A DNA stretch of 64,000 nucleotides from the NCBI RefSeq assembly GCF_036227225.1, contig NZ_CP109444.1, positions 9,405,501-9,469,500 on the forward strand, in the 5' to 3' direction. Source of the stretch: Streptomyces sp. NBC_01478. Lineage in GTDB: Bacteria; Actinomycetota; Actinomycetes; Streptomycetales; Streptomycetaceae. The notes beneath the pieces are model-generated. The model saw only the letters and a program-made list of their open reading frames with translations. It was not told where the DNA came from and did no database searches. Positions 26,671 to 35,940 of the stretch are shown here, one piece after another. Position 1 is the stretch's first letter; each line of letters starts with the position of its first letter. The position numbers and the translations under genes were made by a program.

Positions 26671-27480
26671 TCAGATGAACGAGAGCTGCGTCGGCTCGCT
26701 CACCGGTTCCGCCGGCTCGGGAATCCGGCGCGGCATGCCCGCGCGCGCGGGACCGATGCCGTACTCCTGCGCCAGGTCGTGCACCTGACGGGTGATCCGG
26801 CGCTGGTACCACTTCGGGGCGTACGCGCCCTCCGCGTACAGCCGCTCGTAGCGGCGCACCAGATGCGGATGATGCTGCCCGAGCCAGGCCATGAACCACT
26901 CGCGGGCGCCGGGCCGCAGATGCAGCACCAGGGGAGTCACCGAGGTGGCCCCGGAGGCCGCGATCGCCCTTACGGTGGCGCGCCGTTGGGCCGGGTGGTC
27001 GCTCAGGAAGGGGATCACCGGGGCCATCAGGACGCCCACGTCGATGCCGTGCTCGGTCAGCGTGCGTACGGCGTCCAGGCGCCGCTCCGGGGAGGGCGTC
27101 CCGGGCTCCACCGTGCGCCACAGCGTCGGGTCGGTGAAGCCGACCGAGACCGAGATGCCGACCTCGGTGACCTCGGAGGCCTGCACCAGGAGGTCCAGGT
27201 CGCGCAGGATCAGCGTGCCCTTCGTGAGGATCGAGAAGGGGTTCGCGCAGGTCGCGCAGGTCGCCCAGGATGCCCGGCATCAGCCGGTAGCGGCCCTCCG
27301 CGCGCTGGTAGCAGTCGACGTTCGTGCCCATCGCTATGTGCTCGCCGAGCCAGCGCCGTGAGCCGAGCCGGCGGCGCAGCAGCTCCGGCGCGTTCATTTT
27401 GACCACGATCTGCGAGTCGAAGCCGAGGCCGGTGTCGAGGTCCAGATAGCTGTGCGACTTGCGGGCGAAGCAGTACACGC
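26671..27480 (-). pseudogene. C-terminal part of an Rv2578c-type radical SAM gene, split by an island and frameshifted
   Basis: The frame begins at the junction with CFARKSHSYLDLDTG, continues through MGTNVDCYQRAEGRYRLMPG, then shifts by +1 near 27,235-27,262. There a GACCTGCGC duplication is seen and the frame changes to FSILTKGTLILRD-type sequence. It continues normally (SVSVGFTDPTLWRTVEPGTPSPERR and later LHLRPGAREWFMAWLG) to the stop at 26671. The N-terminal part, with the start codon and most of the Fe-S motif, lies 8.2 kb away at 35706-35940. Confidence 0.85.
27472..27480. other. Left attachment core AGTACACGC
   Basis: This 9-bp sequence is identical to that at the right junction. Host sequence lies to the left (GCGGGCGAAGC) and island sequence to the right (AAGTACTGGACGC). 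Confidence 0.7.
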
Positions 27481-27539
27481 AAGTACTGGACGCAGGACGC
27501 CCGTGGTCCTGGTTGATCATTTCTGTTCTCTACGCAGAA

Positions 27540-27968
27540 CGATCGTCTGGGAGCCACGGGCTTGGTCAACGATACGACGTTGCTGCTGGACCTCGACGGA
27601 GTGTCCGTCATGCGGGTCGAGCGGCTTCAGTGCGGTGGGCGCCGGGTCCACCTGGCCACGGCGGACGCCTCGGCCCGGGCAGAGCGGGCTGGAGTTCGTC
27701 TGGCACAAGCGGCGCTGGTGGTGCCGTGAGACGGCCTGTCCACGACGGTCGTTCAGGGAGCAGATCGAGCAGATACCGGCCGGGGCCCGGATCACACCGT
27801 CGCCGACGTGCTGGCCTGGCTTTCCACCACGTCTCTGACCTGGAGGAAGGCCATCCGATACGTCGCCATCGACATGTCGGCCATCTACCGCTCCGCGATC
27901 CGCACCGGCCTGCCCGAGGCCACCGTCGTGGTCGATCACTTCCATGTGGTGCAGCTCGCGAACAAGAT
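27540..27968 (+). pseudogene. Decayed ISL3-family transposase
   Basis: Pieces of an ISL3 transposase appear in order but in different frames. They are LLLDLDGVSVMRVERL, then GLEFVWHKRRWWCRETACPRRSF (zinc-binding N-domain end), then DVLAWLSTTSLTWRKAIRYVAIDMSAIYRSAI and ATVVVDHFHVVQLANKM of the DDE domain. The segment with the first CPxCG pair is missing. After NKM the frame passes without a stop into a lysA fragment. Confidence 0.75.
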
Positions 27969-28512
27969 GCGCCCTGGGGACGAGGCCCTCGACCTGACCA
28001 CGCTGGCCCGCAGGGTACGCACCGAGCTCGCCGAGGCGTGCGCCGCGGCCCGGCTCCCCGTGCCGCGCCTGATCATCGAACCGGGGCGTGCGATCGCCGG
28101 CCCGGCAGGCATCGCGCTCCACCACGTGCTGGCCGTGAAGCGCACGGGCGACCAGCTGTTCGTCGCGGTGGACGGCGGCATGAGCGACAACCCGCGGCCG
28201 GCACTGTACGGCGTGCGGTACGCACCACGCCTCATCGGCCGGCACAGCACCGCCGACCCGGCCCGAGTGACCGTCGTGGGCCGGCACTGCGAGGCCGGAG
28301 ACATCCTGGCCGCCGAAGTCGAACTCCCCGACGACGTACGCCCGGGAGACCTGCTCGCCGTGCCGGTGTCCGGCGCCTACCACCTCTCCATGGCGTCCGG
28401 CTACAACCTGGTCGGCCGCCCACCGGTGGCCGCCGTACGCGACGGCCACGCCCGCCTCCTCGTACGCCGCGAGTCCCCGGACGACATCCGCAGCCGCGAT
28501 GTGGGCCTGTAA
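27969..28512 (+). pseudogene. C-terminal fragment of diaminopimelate decarboxylase (LysA) fused to the transposase remnant
   Basis: From about 27,969 the frame reads DEALDLTTLARRVRTELAEAC and then IEPGRAIAGPAGIALHHVLAVKR. VDGGMSDNPRPALYG (the conserved PLP-dependent decarboxylase motif) and SGAYHLSMASGYNLVGRP follow. This is the C-terminal 180 residues of LysA with an intact stop. The PLP-lysine half is absent, so the protein cannot decarboxylate. The ORF from 27808 would encode a transposase-LysA chimera of 234 residues. Confidence 0.8.
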
Positions 28513-29431: not shown

Positions 29432-30214
29432 TCACGCGGCGGTGGACGCCCCCACGACCAGGCACATGTAATCCATGCGGACCTCCCCGCCCTCCTCGGC
29501 ATCGAGGCAGGAGGCGACCTCGCGCAGAAGCCGTTGCCGCACCACCGAGGGCAGGACCAGGTGGCGGCTCTCGGTACCCAGCAGGTCGCAGAACTCCCGG
29601 GTGGTGAGCCGGTCCTGCCAGGGCACGGCGGTCCTCGTCACGTGCTGGAACCCGTGGGATCGCAGTTCCTCGGCATATCCGTCGAGGTCGGTCTCCGACA
29701 GGGACGTCCTGCCACCCGGCCCGGGGGGCAGGCCATCGGGCAGGACATTGGCGTAGACACGGTTGAAACTGGCGCTGTTGCGCAGTCTGTAGGAGCCGAA
29801 GTTCCAGGCGAGGAGGATCCGGCCGGCCGGGCGCAGGCACCGCGCCGCCTTGTCCGACCGCTCTCCGCTGTGCAGCCAGTGCCATGCCTGGCCGCATGCC
29901 ACCAGGTCGAACCGCCTGTTGCCGGGCTCCCACGTCTCGAAGGCGCCGACCTCGACGGCCAACCCGTTGGCCGAGGCGACGGCCGCCATCCGCGCATCCG
30001 GCTCGAGACCGGTGACCGTATGGCCGAGTGCCGCCAGGGTGACCCCGAGCTTGCCGGTGCCGCAACCGATGTCGAGCGCGGTGCCGGGTGGGTCGCCACC
30101 CAGGGCGGCCAGGGTCTCGGTGACGGCTTCGGCGGGGTAGCCAGGACGCAGCCGGTCGTAGTCGTGCGCGCGGGCGCCGAAACTGGTGGGCGCCCACACC
30201 GTCTGTTCCGTCAT
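29432..30214 (-). CDS. Class I SAM-dependent methyltransferase, last gene of the RiPP-type locus
   Basis: A 260-residue methyltransferase. SFGARAHDYDRLRPGYP is the usual N-terminus and ALDIGCGTGKLGVTLAALGHTVTGLEPD is motif I. FDLVACGQAWHWL and RCLRPAGRILLAWNFGSY are motifs II and III. It begins one base after the HTTM gene stop, with ATCGGAGGCTGAC as ribosome site, so it is part of the same transcript. It could methylate the peptide product (N- or C-terminus or a side chain); that role is inferred only from position. Confidence 0.85.
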   Translation of the reverse strand: MTEQTVWAPTSFGARAHDYDRLRPGYPAEAVTETLAALGGDPPGTALDIGCGTGKLGVTLAALGHTVTGLEPDARMAAVASANGLAVEVGAFETWEPGNRRFDLVACGQAWHWLHSGERSDKAARCLRPAGRILLAWNFGSYRLRNSASFNRVYANVLPDGLPPGPGGRTSLSETDLDGYAEELRSHGFQHVTRTAVPWQDRLTTREFCDLLGTESRHLVLPSVVRQRLLREVASCLDAEEGGEVRMDYMCLVVGASTAA

Positions 30215-30215
30215 G

Positions 30216-31157
30216 TCAGCCTCCGATCAGGGTCACGAACGTGTGCTGCGGAAGGAAGAGCACGTAGGCGCCCACCGAGGTGAGGCCGAAGGGCACGAGG
30301 CGTTTGGGCAGTAGCGTGGTGAAGGAGACGTGCGTGAGCAGACCGAGAAGTGCACCCGCAGGCCAGGTGGCGGGGAAGATCAGCAGGAGGGGGAGGACGG
30401 CCTCCACGGCGATCGTCGCCAGTGAGGGGAGGCGCCATCGGTGGGCGACGAGCGACGGGTCGGCGGTGGCGAAGCGGCGGGTGAACCAGTCGGGAAAGAA
30501 ATATTCGCGCGGTCCGCCGGGCAGGTCGTCGCGCACGGAGGCCAGTTGCTCGAACACCCTTTGCAGGGTGTACCCGCTGGTGAACTGGCGAGAGATGGCC
30601 TTGTGCCAGGCGCTGCTCCAGTACAGGTGGAACACCAGCACGACGGCGGCGGCCTGTGGCCAGGACGGTCGCCCTTCCCCGGGCACCCGTCGGGGATCGA
30701 AGAATGCGCCCGGGGACGGGGCGTCCAGCAGCGACTGCAGGCTCAGATAGGTGTCGGCCCCCCTGGCGAAGACGAACGGCAGGCACATCGCCCCCAGGAA
30801 CAGCGTGTTGAACTTGCGGTCCCAGGTGAACTCGAAGATGCACCAGGCGGACACGACTGCCGAGGCCAACGGGGTGAGCACACCCGCGAGCACGCACAGC
30901 ACCGCGAGGGCACGGGCGGCGTAGAAGACCCTGAAGGCCGTGGGGCTCAGCAGCAGCTTCACGGACATCTCGTCGTGCTCGTAGCGCCAGCGCTGCAGGG
31001 ACTTGGGGCCGAGGTCGAAGAACCGCGCCATGCCGAAGACGTGGTCGGCGGTGATCTTCCAGAGCAGAGCCGTTCCCAGGACCAGGCGGAAGAAGCACAG
31101 TGAGGGGCCGGCCGTCGTTCCGTGCACCGGGAACGCGGTGGGCAGCAGGTCATGCAC
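30216..31157 (-). CDS. HTTM-domain membrane protein (vitamin K-dependent carboxylase-like)
   Basis: A 313-residue integral membrane protein. LCFFRLVLGTALLWKITADH, ALAVLCVLAGVLTPLASAVVSAWC, FNTLFLGAMCLPFV, AAAVVLVFHLYWSSAWHKAISRQF and LATIAVEAVLPLLLIF give the HTTM pattern, including the HLYWSSAWHK helix with its histidine and lysine. HTTM is shared with vitamin K-dependent gamma-carboxylase, but bacterial members mostly have no known reaction. It starts with GTG inside the end of the preceding small gene (8-bp overlap), implying coupled translation. A modification or export/immunity role in the RiPP locus is possible. Confidence 0.8.
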   Translation of the reverse strand: MHDLLPTAFPVHGTTAGPSLCFFRLVLGTALLWKITADHVFGMARFFDLGPKSLQRWRYEHDEMSVKLLLSPTAFRVFYAARALAVLCVLAGVLTPLASAVVSAWCIFEFTWDRKFNTLFLGAMCLPFVFARGADTYLSLQSLLDAPSPGAFFDPRRVPGEGRPSWPQAAAVVLVFHLYWSSAWHKAISRQFTSGYTLQRVFEQLASVRDDLPGGPREYFFPDWFTRRFATADPSLVAHRWRLPSLATIAVEAVLPLLLIFPATWPAGALLGLLTHVSFTTLLPKRLVPFGLTSVGAYVLFLPQHTFVTLIGG

Positions 31158-31491
31158 GGAGGATCCTGCCGTTTCTGACCACGATCCTGATGTGGTCGAA
31201 GTGCGTCAGGATGACGCCCTCCCCCACGACGCGCCTGCCGTGCTCCTCGTTGAGGTAGCTCACCAGTGAGCCGAGTTCTTCCGGGGAGTTGAAGTAGTCC
31301 TGGCGCACCTCGTACTGCCACGGGTAGACCGGCTGCCCGTCGCGTACGTCGTGCAGCCGGACGCGGTAGGCACCGATGTTGGCGAACATCGGCCAGGAGC
31401 CGAACGCGCCCGGCTCAGTGCAGAATCCACGCCACACCAGCCAGCCCACCGCCCCGCAGCCGAGAACCGCTGCGGCGATGTCGTTGATCAC
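31150..31491 (-). CDS. Small membrane-anchored protein of the RiPP-type locus
   Basis: A 113-residue protein with an N-terminal hydrophobic segment (INDIAAAVLGCGAVGWLVWRGF), then GAFGSWPMFANIGAYRVRL and a charged soluble part. The W-P-M-F-A motif just after a membrane segment recalls periplasmic-side partners of HTTM proteins. GTG start with AAGGAGCCGTC upstream. It overlaps the HTTM gene by 8 bp, so the two likely form a complex. No family name can be given with confidence. Confidence 0.7.
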   Translation of the reverse strand: MINDIAAAVLGCGAVGWLVWRGFCTEPGAFGSWPMFANIGAYRVRLHDVRDGQPVYPWQYEVRQDYFNSPEELGSLVSYLNEEHGRRVVGEGVILTHFDHIRIVVRNGRILRA

Positions 31492-31521
31492 GACGGCTCC
31501 TTCGGTACGTGACGGGACGGG

Positions 31522-32109
31522 TCAAAGGACCATGGACGGCACGGGCCACCGGTCGATCCGGTACGGTGCCCACCAGTCGCGGCCGCCGAAGTCCAGAACG
31601 AGGTGCTCGGCGCGCAGCGCGGCCAGGACCTTGGGGTCGACGCCGTCCGCCCGCTGATCCTCCAGCAGGGTCACGGCCTGCACATACTCGGGCTGGATCA
31701 GATCGAACCGTTGCAATACTCCGTCCCGCCGGTCGCGGATCTGCACGAATCCGGGGCCGCGGCGCCACACGCAGCGGCCGACGTAGAACCGGGTCCTCCA
31801 CTCGGCGAGGCGCTCGACGGACCGGCCGCCGTCGAGCGAGACCGGGGGTTGAAGGTGGGTCAGGTGATGTGCCGTCAGGGCGGGATCGGCGCGGCGGCCG
31901 GCCCGTAGGTGCCAGCGCACCAGCAGACCCCGGCCGGTGGCGTTCCGGACGAAGTCCAGAGCGCGCAGATCGCGCGGGGTGGGGGAGCGCAGCGATACGG
32001 GCTCGTCGAGGGCGACGCACCGGATGCCGCGGCTGTACAGGTCGCTGACCTGCTCGCCGGAGAGCAGGCCGTCCGAGGCGGTGGACGGGGTCAGGAGATC
32101 GTCAGGCAT
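31522..32109 (-). CDS. DUF5825-like protein, RiPP-locus partner of the radical SAM enzyme
   Basis: A 195-residue protein containing SGEQVSDLYSRGIRCVALDEP, VRWHLRAGRR, YVGRCVWRRGPGFVQIRDRR and LVLDFGGRDWWAPYRIDRWPVPSMVL. From memory this resembles the DUF5825 family found beside RiPP-maturation radical SAM C-methyltransferases. The GPGFVQIRDRR segment suggests a small RRE-like or recognition fold, but this is a guess. Its ATG (GAGGAGCC upstream) overlaps the end of the radical SAM gene by 19 bp, implying equal expression and probably physical association. Confidence 0.65.
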   Translation of the reverse strand: MPDDLLTPSTASDGLLSGEQVSDLYSRGIRCVALDEPVSLRSPTPRDLRALDFVRNATGRGLLVRWHLRAGRRADPALTAHHLTHLQPPVSLDGGRSVERLAEWRTRFYVGRCVWRRGPGFVQIRDRRDGVLQRFDLIQPEYVQAVTLLEDQRADGVDPKVLAALRAEHLVLDFGGRDWWAPYRIDRWPVPSMVL

Positions 32110-34028
32110 GCGGGCTCCTCGGCCAGCTCCAGGGCCAGTTCAGGCCCGCCGGACTTCTGCGACTCACGTCGGATGCGGCACATCAACTGGTTCTCGTCCT
32201 CGGTCGCGACATGGAGGGCGCGACCGTCCTCGACGAAGATCAGCCCTTGGCGGCACCAGTCGGCGAGCAGGGCCTCGACACGGGGCTTGTCCCAGGCGTC
32301 GCTCCGCCGGGTTGCGCGGCCTACCAGCTGATCGAGGGATCTGGGGTCGTGCAGGGCATGGAACAACTCCACCTCGACCGGGTCGTCCAACGTCATGGAC
32401 CGCCAGGTGAAACCCGGCCGGGAGTTGACCAGTTCGATGCGGTCACCGAGATCGACGTAGGACAGGCGGCTGTGGACGTAGTTCTCGCTCCATTCCTGAA
32501 GGGCCTCGTCCAGGCGGTCGGCGACCGTGCTCTCGATGCCCCGGTCGTCGGTGTCGAACAGGTAGGCCAGGTCGGCCAGTTCGGTGTCCGGCAGGTCATA
32601 AATGAGCTCGTACTGCCAGTGCGGGCTGCGGTCGGCGAAGCCCAGCTCGGGGCGGTCGAAGTAGGGACTGAAACGCTCCAGCGCGATCCTGCCGGCTCCG
32701 GAGGAGGGGTGAAGGTGATGCAGGGCCGGAAGCTGCTCGATGACAGGCAGATAGTCGGCCTGCGTTTCACCCGGAAACCCGTACAGGTAGTTCCACGCCA
32801 CCGACAGTCCGTTGCTCTCGGCATCCCGGAGAAAGCGTACGTTGAGGGTGCCACTCACCCCCTTGTCCATGATTCCCAGCACGCGGGTGCTGAGGTTCTC
32901 GATGCCCGGCTGGACGCTGACCACTCCCGCCGCGCGCAACTGGGCGATCTGTGACAACTTCATGTTCGACTTGACCTCGTACTGGATACGCAGGTCGAAG
33001 GGCGCCTCGGCGATCTTGGCCAGGACGGAGTCGAGGTAGGACATCTCCAGAATGTTGTCAACGGCGTAGAAGTCCAGCACGCGGTGACGTCCGGCGAGCG
33101 TGAGAATCTCCTCCAGATAGGTGTGCGGACTCTTGCTGCGGAAGGTCATTGCCGACCCGTTGAGCCCGCAGAAGGTGCAGTGGTGCTTTTCACCCCACCA
33201 GCAGCCGCGTGCGCCTTCGACCACGAGCACGGGCTCGAACCAGGACTGCACGCGGGATCGCCGCATCCGGTCGAAGTAGGCGTCGTAGTCGGGCGACGGG
33301 ATCTCGCCCGGTGCCAGCAGGCGATCGGACAGCGGATTGCTCACACTCGTGTCGCCGTCGCGCCAGCACAGGCCGGGAACGCCGGAGATGTCCACCTTGT
33401 CGTCGGCGCCATCGGGGAGATGGGCCGCGACGAGTTGCGTAAATGTCCGCTCCCCCTCGCCGCGTACGGTGTAGTCGACGAAGTCGAAGTTGCGGTGCAG
33501 CGCTTCGCCCTGCGAGCCGTCACAGTTGGCGCCGCCCATGACGGTCTTCGTGGCCGGGGACAACTCCTTTATGCGCCGCAGCAGTGCGAGGGATGCCACG
33601 TTCTGCTGGAACGTCGAGGTCGCGCCCACGAGATCGGGTCCGTCGGCGACGATCCGCCGCGCGAGCGCGTCGATGAAGCCGGGGGCTGTCCGGTGTAGCC
33701 GCAGGCATGTCTCCATCTGCTCGGCGCTGATACGGTCCGCCATCTCGCGGGTGAATTCTTCGACCCGCCACGAGGTGTCGTCGTAGAGAGCGGAGGAGAA
33801 CACCCAGTCGCCGCATCCCATGAAATAGCTCTGCAGGGAGAAGAAGCCGAAGTCGACGGCACCGTATCCGCCTTGGTGATGCATCCAGTCCGCGAAGTCG
33901 ATGTTGGCGTACACGGTCTCCGTCTCAATCTCCGGAAACGTGGCCGCGATCTTTTTCGAGAGGATCCCGAGTGCGAGCGAGGGAGTTGCTATCGAGGCCC
34001 ACGGCATGCTGACCAGCGTGATCTTCAT
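32091..34028 (-). CDS. B12-dependent RiPP maturation radical SAM C-methyltransferase
   Basis: A 645-residue enzyme. The N-terminal cobalamin-binding domain (KITLVSMPWASIATPSLALG to about residue 200) includes VGATSTFQQNVASLALLRRIKE and VMGGANCDGSQGEAL. The radical SAM core has the iron-sulfur cysteines C276, C284 and C287 in GARGCWWGEKHHCTFCGLNG. It continues with YAVDNILEMSYLD and SVQPGIENLSTRVLGIMDKG. The C-terminal 150 residues are specific to the rSAM_ocin_1 / TIGR03975 type. Such enzymes methylate unactivated carbon atoms of precursor peptides. An SD of GGAGGG precedes the ATG. The candidate substrate gene lies 127 bp upstream. Confidence 0.9.
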   Translation of the reverse strand: MKITLVSMPWASIATPSLALGILSKKIAATFPEIETETVYANIDFADWMHHQGGYGAVDFGFFSLQSYFMGCGDWVFSSALYDDTSWRVEEFTREMADRISAEQMETCLRLHRTAPGFIDALARRIVADGPDLVGATSTFQQNVASLALLRRIKELSPATKTVMGGANCDGSQGEALHRNFDFVDYTVRGEGERTFTQLVAAHLPDGADDKVDISGVPGLCWRDGDTSVSNPLSDRLLAPGEIPSPDYDAYFDRMRRSRVQSWFEPVLVVEGARGCWWGEKHHCTFCGLNGSAMTFRSKSPHTYLEEILTLAGRHRVLDFYAVDNILEMSYLDSVLAKIAEAPFDLRIQYEVKSNMKLSQIAQLRAAGVVSVQPGIENLSTRVLGIMDKGVSGTLNVRFLRDAESNGLSVAWNYLYGFPGETQADYLPVIEQLPALHHLHPSSGAGRIALERFSPYFDRPELGFADRSPHWQYELIYDLPDTELADLAYLFDTDDRGIESTVADRLDEALQEWSENYVHSRLSYVDLGDRIELVNSRPGFTWRSMTLDDPVEVELFHALHDPRSLDQLVGRATRRSDAWDKPRVEALLADWCRQGLIFVEDGRALHVATEDENQLMCRIRRESQKSGGPELALELAEEPACLTIS

Positions 34029-34086
34029 ATGCCCTCCGGTGCGAGCCCGCGCTTCCGGAAATGCGGGGCGAGGCGTGATCGTTGAC

Positions 34087-34127
34087 CGCTTCCGGTGCGG
34101 CCCGAACTTCCGGCCGCACCGGAAGCG
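34087..34127 (-). terminator. Stem-loop between precursor gene and radical SAM gene
   Basis: Perfect 16-bp arms CGCTTCCGGTGCGGCC (34087-34102) and complement (34112-34127) with a 9-nt loop. There is no U-tract after the stem on the minus strand. This placement is typical of RiPP operons, where partial termination or RNA stabilisation keeps precursor levels above enzyme levels. Confidence 0.75.
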
Positions 34128-34155
34128 ATGGAAAACCCAGATCAGGTGGGCCTCG

Positions 34156-34245
34156 TCAGAACCTGCCGGTTATGATCGGTATCGTGATCGTGGCCGATTC
34201 AGTGCCTTCGGTCTGCGGGTCGTTGTCGACGACTGTCTTCTCCAC
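34156..34245 (-). CDS. Candidate RiPP precursor peptide (29 residues)
   Basis: A minus-strand frame of 30 codons begins with GTG at 34245 behind a near-perfect ribosome site (GAGGGGAGGAA, spacing about six) and ends with TGA at 34156. The N-terminal part starts MEKTVVDNDPQTEG and is acidic and polar, like a leader. The C-terminal part ends TITIPIITGRF, rich in beta-branched Ile and Thr that a C-methyltransferase could modify. No other start exists in this frame back to the stop at 34318. It is followed by a strong stem-loop and the radical SAM gene. Confidence 0.65.
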   Translation of the reverse strand: MEKTVVDNDPQTEGTESATITIPIITGRF

Positions 34246-34494
34246 GGCGTTCCTCCCCTCAGTCGCTCGATGGGGCCGACACGCGAATGGTGCGTAGCTG
34301 CGCCGGCGAGTCGTAACTCACCGGACAGCGTGGGCTGTTCAGAGCGGGCTGTCGTGCTCTGTTCCGCTCAGCGGACCGGACCCGACGCCACCGCTACGGG
34401 TCGGCACTTGCAGGTGGCTGCTCCGCTCAACCACACAGGACACGGTCTGTTCAAGACAGGGCTGTTTCCGTTGAGCCCCTGTTCCCTGTGAGGT

Positions 34495-34991
34495 GTTCGG
34501 CTTCAGCCCGGACGATGTCCGCGACGGCTTCGTGCACGTGGAGCGGCAGATCCTCCTGCACAAGTCGCGGCTGTACTTCGGTCCCCCCAAGGGACCTTGC
34601 ACGCGAGAACCGGCGCAAGGTGACGGTCCGGCTGCTCGTGTACACACGGCGGGGCGGCGCGATCAACCGCACCACTTGGAACACCGGGGCGCGGAAGCCT
34701 GCGCTTGGGACTGCGGGAGTTGTCTCTCCGCTCCCCGCGCAACAGCCGGGGGAGAAGCCGTCGCAGGTTTGGGAGCCGAGCCGCGAGCACGGCTTCCACG
34801 TCTTGCGCCATACGTACGCCTCCGTGATGCTCGAAGCAGGTGAGTCGATCGCCTCCCTCGCGAAGTGGCTGGGGCACTCCGACCCCGCGTTCACGCTCCG
34901 CACGTACACGCACTTCATACCGCAGGCCTGCGCCCGGGGACTGTCCGCGATCGTGGTCGGGGGCGTTGTTGCCGAAGGCCTTGCGTGGTGA
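34495..34991 (+). pseudogene. Decayed tyrosine recombinase (phage/ICE-type integrase), C-terminal part
   Basis: One frame reads FGFSPDDVRDGFVHVERQI and then LLHKSRLYFGPPKG. After a frameshift near 34,590 another gives RKVTVRLLVYTRRGGAINR and SQVWEPSREHGFHVLRHTYA, then LAKWLGHSDPAFTLRTYTHFIP. HVLRH, WLGH and the tyrosine in TYTHF are catalytic-domain motifs of tyrosine recombinases. The N-terminal domain and the first catalytic arginine region are missing or out of frame, so it is inactive. Confidence 0.75.
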
Positions 34992-35694: not shown

Positions 35695-35940
35695 TCAGGC
35701 AGTGAAGTACACGCACGCGTGCGAGCAGCCCCGGTACGGGTTGACCGTCCACTCGAAGGGCATGCGGGACGCCCCCGGCACCCGGTTGATGATCGAGCGG
35801 GCCCGCACCTCGTGGAAGGTGATCCCGCGGAACGCGGGTGTGTCGAACGTACGGCTGACCACGGCGTCCGCGCCGAACAGCGCGGCGTCGGCCGCCCGGC
35901 TGTGACCGCCGGACTCCAGGGTGAGGTTCTCCCAGCGCAT
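35695..35940 (-). pseudogene. N-terminal part of the split Rv2578c-type radical SAM gene
   Basis: The frame starts at ATG 35940 behind AGGAGGCGTC. It reads MRWENLTLESGGHSR, then VVSRTFDTPAFRGITFHEVRA and MPFEWTVNPYRGCSHACVY. It enters the island with FTA and a stop. RGCSHACVYC would be the CxxxCxxC radical SAM cluster, so the insertion removes the third cysteine. The remainder lies at 26671-27480. Confidence 0.85.
35706..35714. other. Right attachment core AGTACACGC
   Basis: Identical to the left core. Island sequence (GGCAGTGA) is on its left and host gene sequence (ACGCGTGCGAGCAG) on its right. Confidence 0.7.

Follow-up and report, generated by a model that had tools for sequence, protein, structure and literature searches.

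An HTTM membrane protein, a small partner and a methyltransferase in a clavusporin-type RiPP operon of Streptomyces

Introduction

What does an HTTM membrane protein do in an operon that modifies a ribosomal peptide? The question is raised by six adjoining genes of Streptomyces sp. NBC_01478, which lie in a 64,000-nucleotide stretch of DNA (the window; all positions are given in it). A sequence-only reading of the window had proposed a new RiPP system, in which a short peptide is the substrate of a B12 radical SAM C-methyltransferase, and an HTTM protein with a small partner adds a further step. We compared the operon with related loci in other genomes, and here weigh the roles that the HTTM pair may have.

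Results

A six-gene operon begins with a conserved precursor peptide

The genome is a single contig of 12.1 Mb, and the operon runs along its minus strand from 34245 to 29432 as six genes (Table 1), with the coordinates and strand first reported for them. The spacing is as tight as that reading claimed for most of the operon: the radical SAM and DUF5825 genes overlap by 19 bp and the small-partner and HTTM genes by 8 bp, with gaps of 30 bp between the DUF5825 and small-partner genes and 1 bp between the HTTM and methyltransferase genes. The exception is the gap between the peptide and radical SAM genes, which measures 127 bp and not 1-30 bp. A ribosome site, GGGGAGG, precedes the peptide gene at 34258-34252.

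Table 1. Features of the operon and of the insertion that carries it.
Feature	Position in window	Strand	Details
10-bp repeat, opposite insertion end	35706..35715	-	TGCGTGTACT
Precursor peptide gene, 29 aa	34156..34245	-	MEKTVVDNDPQTEGTESATITIPIITGRF; GTG start
Hairpin in the gap before the radical SAM gene	34087..34127	-	20-nt arms, 95% complementary
B12-binding radical SAM C-methyltransferase, 645 aa	32091..34028	-	TIGR03975, PF02310, PF04055
DUF5825 protein, 195 aa	31522..32109	-	PF19142, E 1.6e-54
Small membrane-anchored partner, 113 aa	31150..31491	-	W-P-M-F (family: W-x-M-F)
HTTM (gamma-carboxylase-fold) membrane protein, 313 aa	30216..31157	-	
Class I SAM-dependent methyltransferase, 260 aa	29432..30214	-	PF13649, E 2.9e-12
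10-bp repeat, one insertion end	27472..27481	-	TGCGTGTACT

Nine distinct loci of the HTTM clade could be read: the window, L039, L051, L052, L053, L054 (the same as L042), L055 (L041), L056 and L057 (L040). The gene order recurs at all nine together with a conserved precursor, which bears out the proposal of a RiPP-type operon. Directly 5′ of the radical SAM gene, each locus encodes one or two short peptides, 13 in total, with the leader [MV][EQ]K[TV][VI]V-x-[NS][DN]PQ, then a variable stretch, and then a Val/Ile/Thr/Ser-rich end. The window peptide has its leader and its C-terminal aromatic residue in common with 12 more peptides at the eight other loci. We searched for homologous loci without a conserved short ORF, the finding that would have spoken against a precursor, and found the ORF kept; comparison of the C-termini, also suggested by the sequence-only reading, showed an aromatic end across all 13 peptides (Phe in 12, Tyr in one).

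The short precursor encoded ahead of the radical SAM gene has the leader K-x-[VI]-[VI]-x-[NDS]-[DNS]-P, which it shares with the non-HTTM loci. We scanned 90 loci (1.66 Mb, six frames) for a looser leader pattern, and all 73 matches, in 68 loci, fell no more than 700 bp from a radical SAM start. This pattern was devised after the peptides had been seen, and the position of its matches serves as the control; it is absent from 22 of the 90 loci, some of which have variant leaders or no upstream DNA. Because every match adjoins a radical SAM start, we conclude that the peptide gene is real and tied to the enzyme. Many other TIGR03975/DUF5825 loci encode related peptides, for which MQKDIIHNDPLAGDEENRKPGIGITVTVPFRNAEDGEED is typical in Streptomyces and MRKNIIENDPISGNRDQVRSDVAVTVTVTVKF in Micromonospora. 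The make-up of the HTTM-clade cores is not plainly unlike that of the non-HTTM Micromonospora cores, which likewise end in Phe, and thus no residue marks an extra modification. Four clade loci (L051, L052, L054 and L055) encode two precursors each, both 5′ of the radical SAM gene; in the second the core is longer, for example STVISVMVVVSF.

The hairpin that follows the precursor gene folds at -49.1 kcal/mol (z -6.6). When the counterpart gap was folded in five other clade loci, four gave z of -2.7 to -4.4, and L039 just -1.2. No T-run terminator was found at the hairpin, a search for a sigma-70-type promoter found none, and an Rfam search of the window returned nothing at gathering score. We propose that the hairpin may be a processing or attenuation element that would keep the mRNA of the precursor more abundant than that of the enzymes.

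The radical SAM/DUF5825 core is of the clavusporin kind

The radical SAM protein matches TIGR03975 with an E-value of 1.4e-180 and 601.8 bits, against a curated cut-off of 281.85, and also matches PF02310 and PF04055 in Pfam. Its closest named homologues are Streptomyces proteins at 89-91% identity. A pairing of the same kind is known from the clavusporins (Zhang, Li, Overton, Seyedsayamdost, Nat Chem Biol 2025), in which a B12-rSAM/DUF5825 pair is reported to C-methylate amino acids, as cited in PMC12257519. The system is therefore not new as a whole: its radical SAM/DUF5825 core, with the two genes side by side as in clavusporin clusters, is of a published kind, and DUF5825 is present in 89 of 394 Streptomycetaceae genomes. 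The HTTM pair and the methyltransferase are the new part, and the system is a variant of the clavusporin-type RiPP.

In the clavusporin pathway a prolyl oligopeptidase, MpcP, cuts off the leader (PMC12951456), whereas the HTTM clade has no such gene at the locus and has the HTTM protein, its partner and the methyltransferase in addition. Since no prolyl oligopeptidase is linked at any of the nine HTTM-clade loci, we class the locus as a variant and not as a clavusporin locus. The common non-HTTM Streptomyces loci, which have a peptidase gene and precursors with a KP site ahead of the core, are by contrast probably of the clavusporin type, and we infer that their peptides are clavusporin precursors.

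Biphenomycin-like clusters, with YHxYxY precursors, also contain a second B12 radical SAM enzyme and a DUF5825 protein (PMC12257519); they are built, however, around an MNIO as core enzyme together with its partner protein, neither of which is among the window's six genes. The strain itself has a second radical SAM/DUF5825 locus (L044, G000:C1:11603000-11618000; 51% and 34% identity), in which we found no HTTM match and no leader-motif peptide.

The HTTM pair is inherited within a single radical SAM clade

To follow the suggestion that the radical SAM protein, the DUF5825 protein and the HTTM pair be sought together, we searched up to 9 kb either side of radical SAM genes (tblastn, E <= 0.01), and found them together at all nine clade loci. 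The HTTM protein and small partner are 60-81% identical at the other eight, and were detected at none of 73 loci whose radical SAM proteins are less closely related (50-58% identity); 70 of these loci are informative for absence, as L078, L107 and L125 stop before the expected HTTM position. The methyltransferase is likewise present at 9/9 clade loci, with weak partial matches, all outside the operon, at four of the 73 distant loci; DUF5825 is present at 72 of them. No HTTM match was found in 30 short DUF5825 loci (L009-L038), and four of 12 further DUF5825 places examined carry the full gene set.

In a radical SAM tree of 52 rows (25 from alignment A1, 7 clade loci and 20 of the 73 others), the HTTM clade forms one branch with 100/100 support. 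A count of HTTM gains and losses on this tree (8 changes) was discarded, as 18 protein-database clade rows carry no context label; our reading of the tree relies on the support for the clade and on the 8 rows that have context. Presence at 9/9 clade loci, absence from the 73 others and confinement to one clade indicate that the HTTM pair belongs to the system by inheritance. The HTTM family of the window protein is narrow, with at least 17 homologues at E <= 0.001, of which at least 15 reach 72% identity, and a sample of 394 genomes from the class gave a single match, in the source genome. We found no paper in the open-access literature that joins HTTM, RiPP and radical SAM, and just one, on corynaridin (PMC9927463), that joins HTTM with a RiPP.

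The HTTM protein has a predicted gamma-carboxylase fold

The HTTM protein of the window itself matches no HTTM model, but a relative at 43% identity, P0137, matches PF05090 (the one member of 18 to do so), and the predicted structure of the window protein adopts a gamma-carboxylase fold with moderate confidence (pLDDT 67.8). The gamma-carboxylase GGCX shares the HTTM fold with this predicted structure over residues 59-322. The two systems differ in that GGCX is one chain of more than 600 residues, compared with a 313-aa protein and a separate 113-aa partner here, and in that window-type precursors offer no general Glu substrate. A profile of the HTTM family (A2) gave no PDB match at E <= 10 and no sequence-level link to GGCX; as neither this search nor one with the P0137 sequence returned GGCX, the link to GGCX is one of fold. 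The single-sequence PDB search with P0137 matched designed TPR proteins alone (best E 1.2e-6), which we take as compositional. For the small partner, the best match to a PDB chain (E 0.9) is taken as chance, and its VIA list of 50 rows held 44 proteasome or Anbu chains, which we do not count as kin, and 6 GGCX rows.

Lys186 of the HTTM protein is invariant in all 18 family members. The catalytic lysine of GGCX is K218, and by analogy Lys186 may act as a base. Nine generic HTTM proteins have a Lys aligned with Lys186 too; their frames were picked by a pattern demanding that Lys, and their agreement does not count as independent. Asn117 is found in 17 of the 18 members in alignment A2, with His in the PF05090-matching P0137; this difference may mark a change of chemistry. 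Generic HTTM genes are widespread, with PF05090 matches in 186 of 199 sampled Streptomyces genomes at E <= 0.001 (over cut-off in 150), and no W-x-[MF]-F protein was found beside the strain's own two in 3.3-kb loci (L131, L132).

The carboxylase fold and conserved Lys would also suit a true gamma-carboxylase, with Gla formed in the peptide, and some peptides do have a Glu near the end (for example VEVGITVKF). We rate this reading as very improbable because two of the 13 precursors, those of L039 and L056, contain no Glu whatever, and Glu carboxylation as a general reaction was set aside on the same count. The same invariant Lys186 and fold suggest an enzyme, and so weigh against the pair being an immunity or sensing device by which the producer withstands the membrane-active peptide that it makes. 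Such a role would agree with membrane proteins that belong to no recognised enzyme family and always accompany the peptide; the non-HTTM loci, however, do without the pair, and we consider protection of the producer an improbable explanation.

A linked peptidase is missing from HTTM-clade loci

A prolyl oligopeptidase homologue is encoded at 61 of the 73 non-HTTM loci versus none of the nine HTTM loci, the window included (the upstream DNA of L054 extends just 2.1 kb), and a KP site occurs in 37 of 60 motif-bearing non-HTTM precursors versus none of the 13 HTTM-clade precursors. On these counts, the sub-clade is a C-methylation core without a linked peptidase, and with a membrane unit and a methyltransferase instead. 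They also raise the possibility that the HTTM pair matures the peptide, cutting the leader or releasing or exporting the product in place of the peptidase. No protease is found among 10 annotated conserved clade neighbours (including P450, MFS and SARP-type regulator genes), and PF05090 has a match in Bacillus subtilis. In Bacillus, the HTTM protein SdpB is needed, with SdpA, for maturing the peptide SDP. Yet the absence of the peptidase counts as one event, the HTTM clade being one lineage, and the peptidase is also missing at 12 of the 73 other loci (two of which, L074 and L079, have no upstream DNA). In addition, none of the 18 HTTM family members matches an SdpB-type model at E <= 10 in NCBIfam, which presumably includes one, and GGCX, the solved relative, is no protease. 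We regard a maturation role as possible but on balance unlikely.

Corynaridin offers a precedent. The operon of this linaridin, whose core peptide is rich in Thr, encodes CrdG, a protein with an HTTM domain, and all Thr and Ser of the peptide, seven and one, are dehydrated; the same account calls the exact mechanism of linaridin HTTM proteins unclear (PMC9927463). Some other linaridins have D-residues, for which grmL is a candidate epimerase gene, and linaridins are usually N-dimethylated (PMC10373908); the methyltransferase that is usual in them is a further likeness. A point against a dehydrating role for the HTTM protein is that a review (PMC10880069) ascribes the dehydration of cypemycin to kinases and lyases and not to a protein of the HTTM kind. 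The operon also differs from linaridin loci, which have the hallmark LinL and an alpha/beta hydrolase (PMC9927463), neither of them named by Pfam or NCBIfam among the window's six genes.

The operon lies in an 8.2-kb insertion

In the window, the operon sits inside an 8.2-kb insertion, flanked by a 10-bp direct repeat (Table 1), that splits a host gene into a start at 35940-35703 and a remainder from 27481 down. The two parts are contiguous in all five relatives compared (L166-L170), and the downstream part has a match of 600 bases or more in 20 of 21 genomes searched, its own included. Relative to these relatives, the downstream half shows a frame disruption. Their intact product carries a C-x3-C-x2-C motif (GCSHACVYC), and we take it to be an Rv2578c-type radical SAM protein; a Pfam search with the two split-gene fragments gave no match. 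Also within the insertion are a C-terminal phage integrase fragment (34488-34991) and an ISL3 transposase piece joined to a PLP-dependent decarboxylase C-terminal domain (27808-28512). The insertion fits a sporadic, horizontal spread of the operon.

The surroundings vary among clade loci. Two cytochrome P450 genes (PF00067) lie directly 5′ of the precursor at L039:10128-12720, and L056 has related ORFs in the same place (by blastp; the Pfam annotation is in L039 alone). A SARP-type regulator (BTAD, NB-ARC, TPR) lies upstream at L052:5523-8459 and an MFS transporter downstream at L052:13646-14959; SARP- and MFS-related ORFs occur at other clade loci, with none at these places in the window.

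Discussion

We propose that the radical SAM enzyme and DUF5825 protein would bind the leader and methylate side-chain carbons of the core, as reports on the clavusporins suggest. The HTTM protein and its partner would form one membrane unit akin to the vitamin K-dependent gamma-carboxylase, which would alter the peptide at the membrane; the probable means is C-H chemistry with a strong base, for instance epimerisation or dehydration. One end of the peptide may be capped by the class I methyltransferase, and we would expect a linear, hydrophobic product that is perhaps surface-active. A precursor that is C-methylated is, taken alone, very likely. For the pathway as a whole, in which a clavusporin-type RiPP operon carries an extra modification step at the membrane and the HTTM pair has a chemical role, we judge the chances to be evenly balanced.

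A more specific form of this pathway can be put forward only tentatively, and seems to us rather unlikely in its full detail: the HTTM protein and W-x-M-F partner would be a gamma-carboxylase split into two chains, a membrane and a luminal domain, in which a strong base made with menaquinone and oxygen epimerises or dehydrates the C-methylated peptide. If true, this would be a quinone-powered RiPP enzyme, and would tie vitamin K chemistry to bacterial peptide natural products.

The compact operon combines an HTTM pair with an obvious substrate of 26-33 residues and two more enzymes of understood kind, and thereby makes the action of bacterial HTTM proteins on peptides testable. It also extends the clavusporin kind, and its leader and core rules serve to find further loci.
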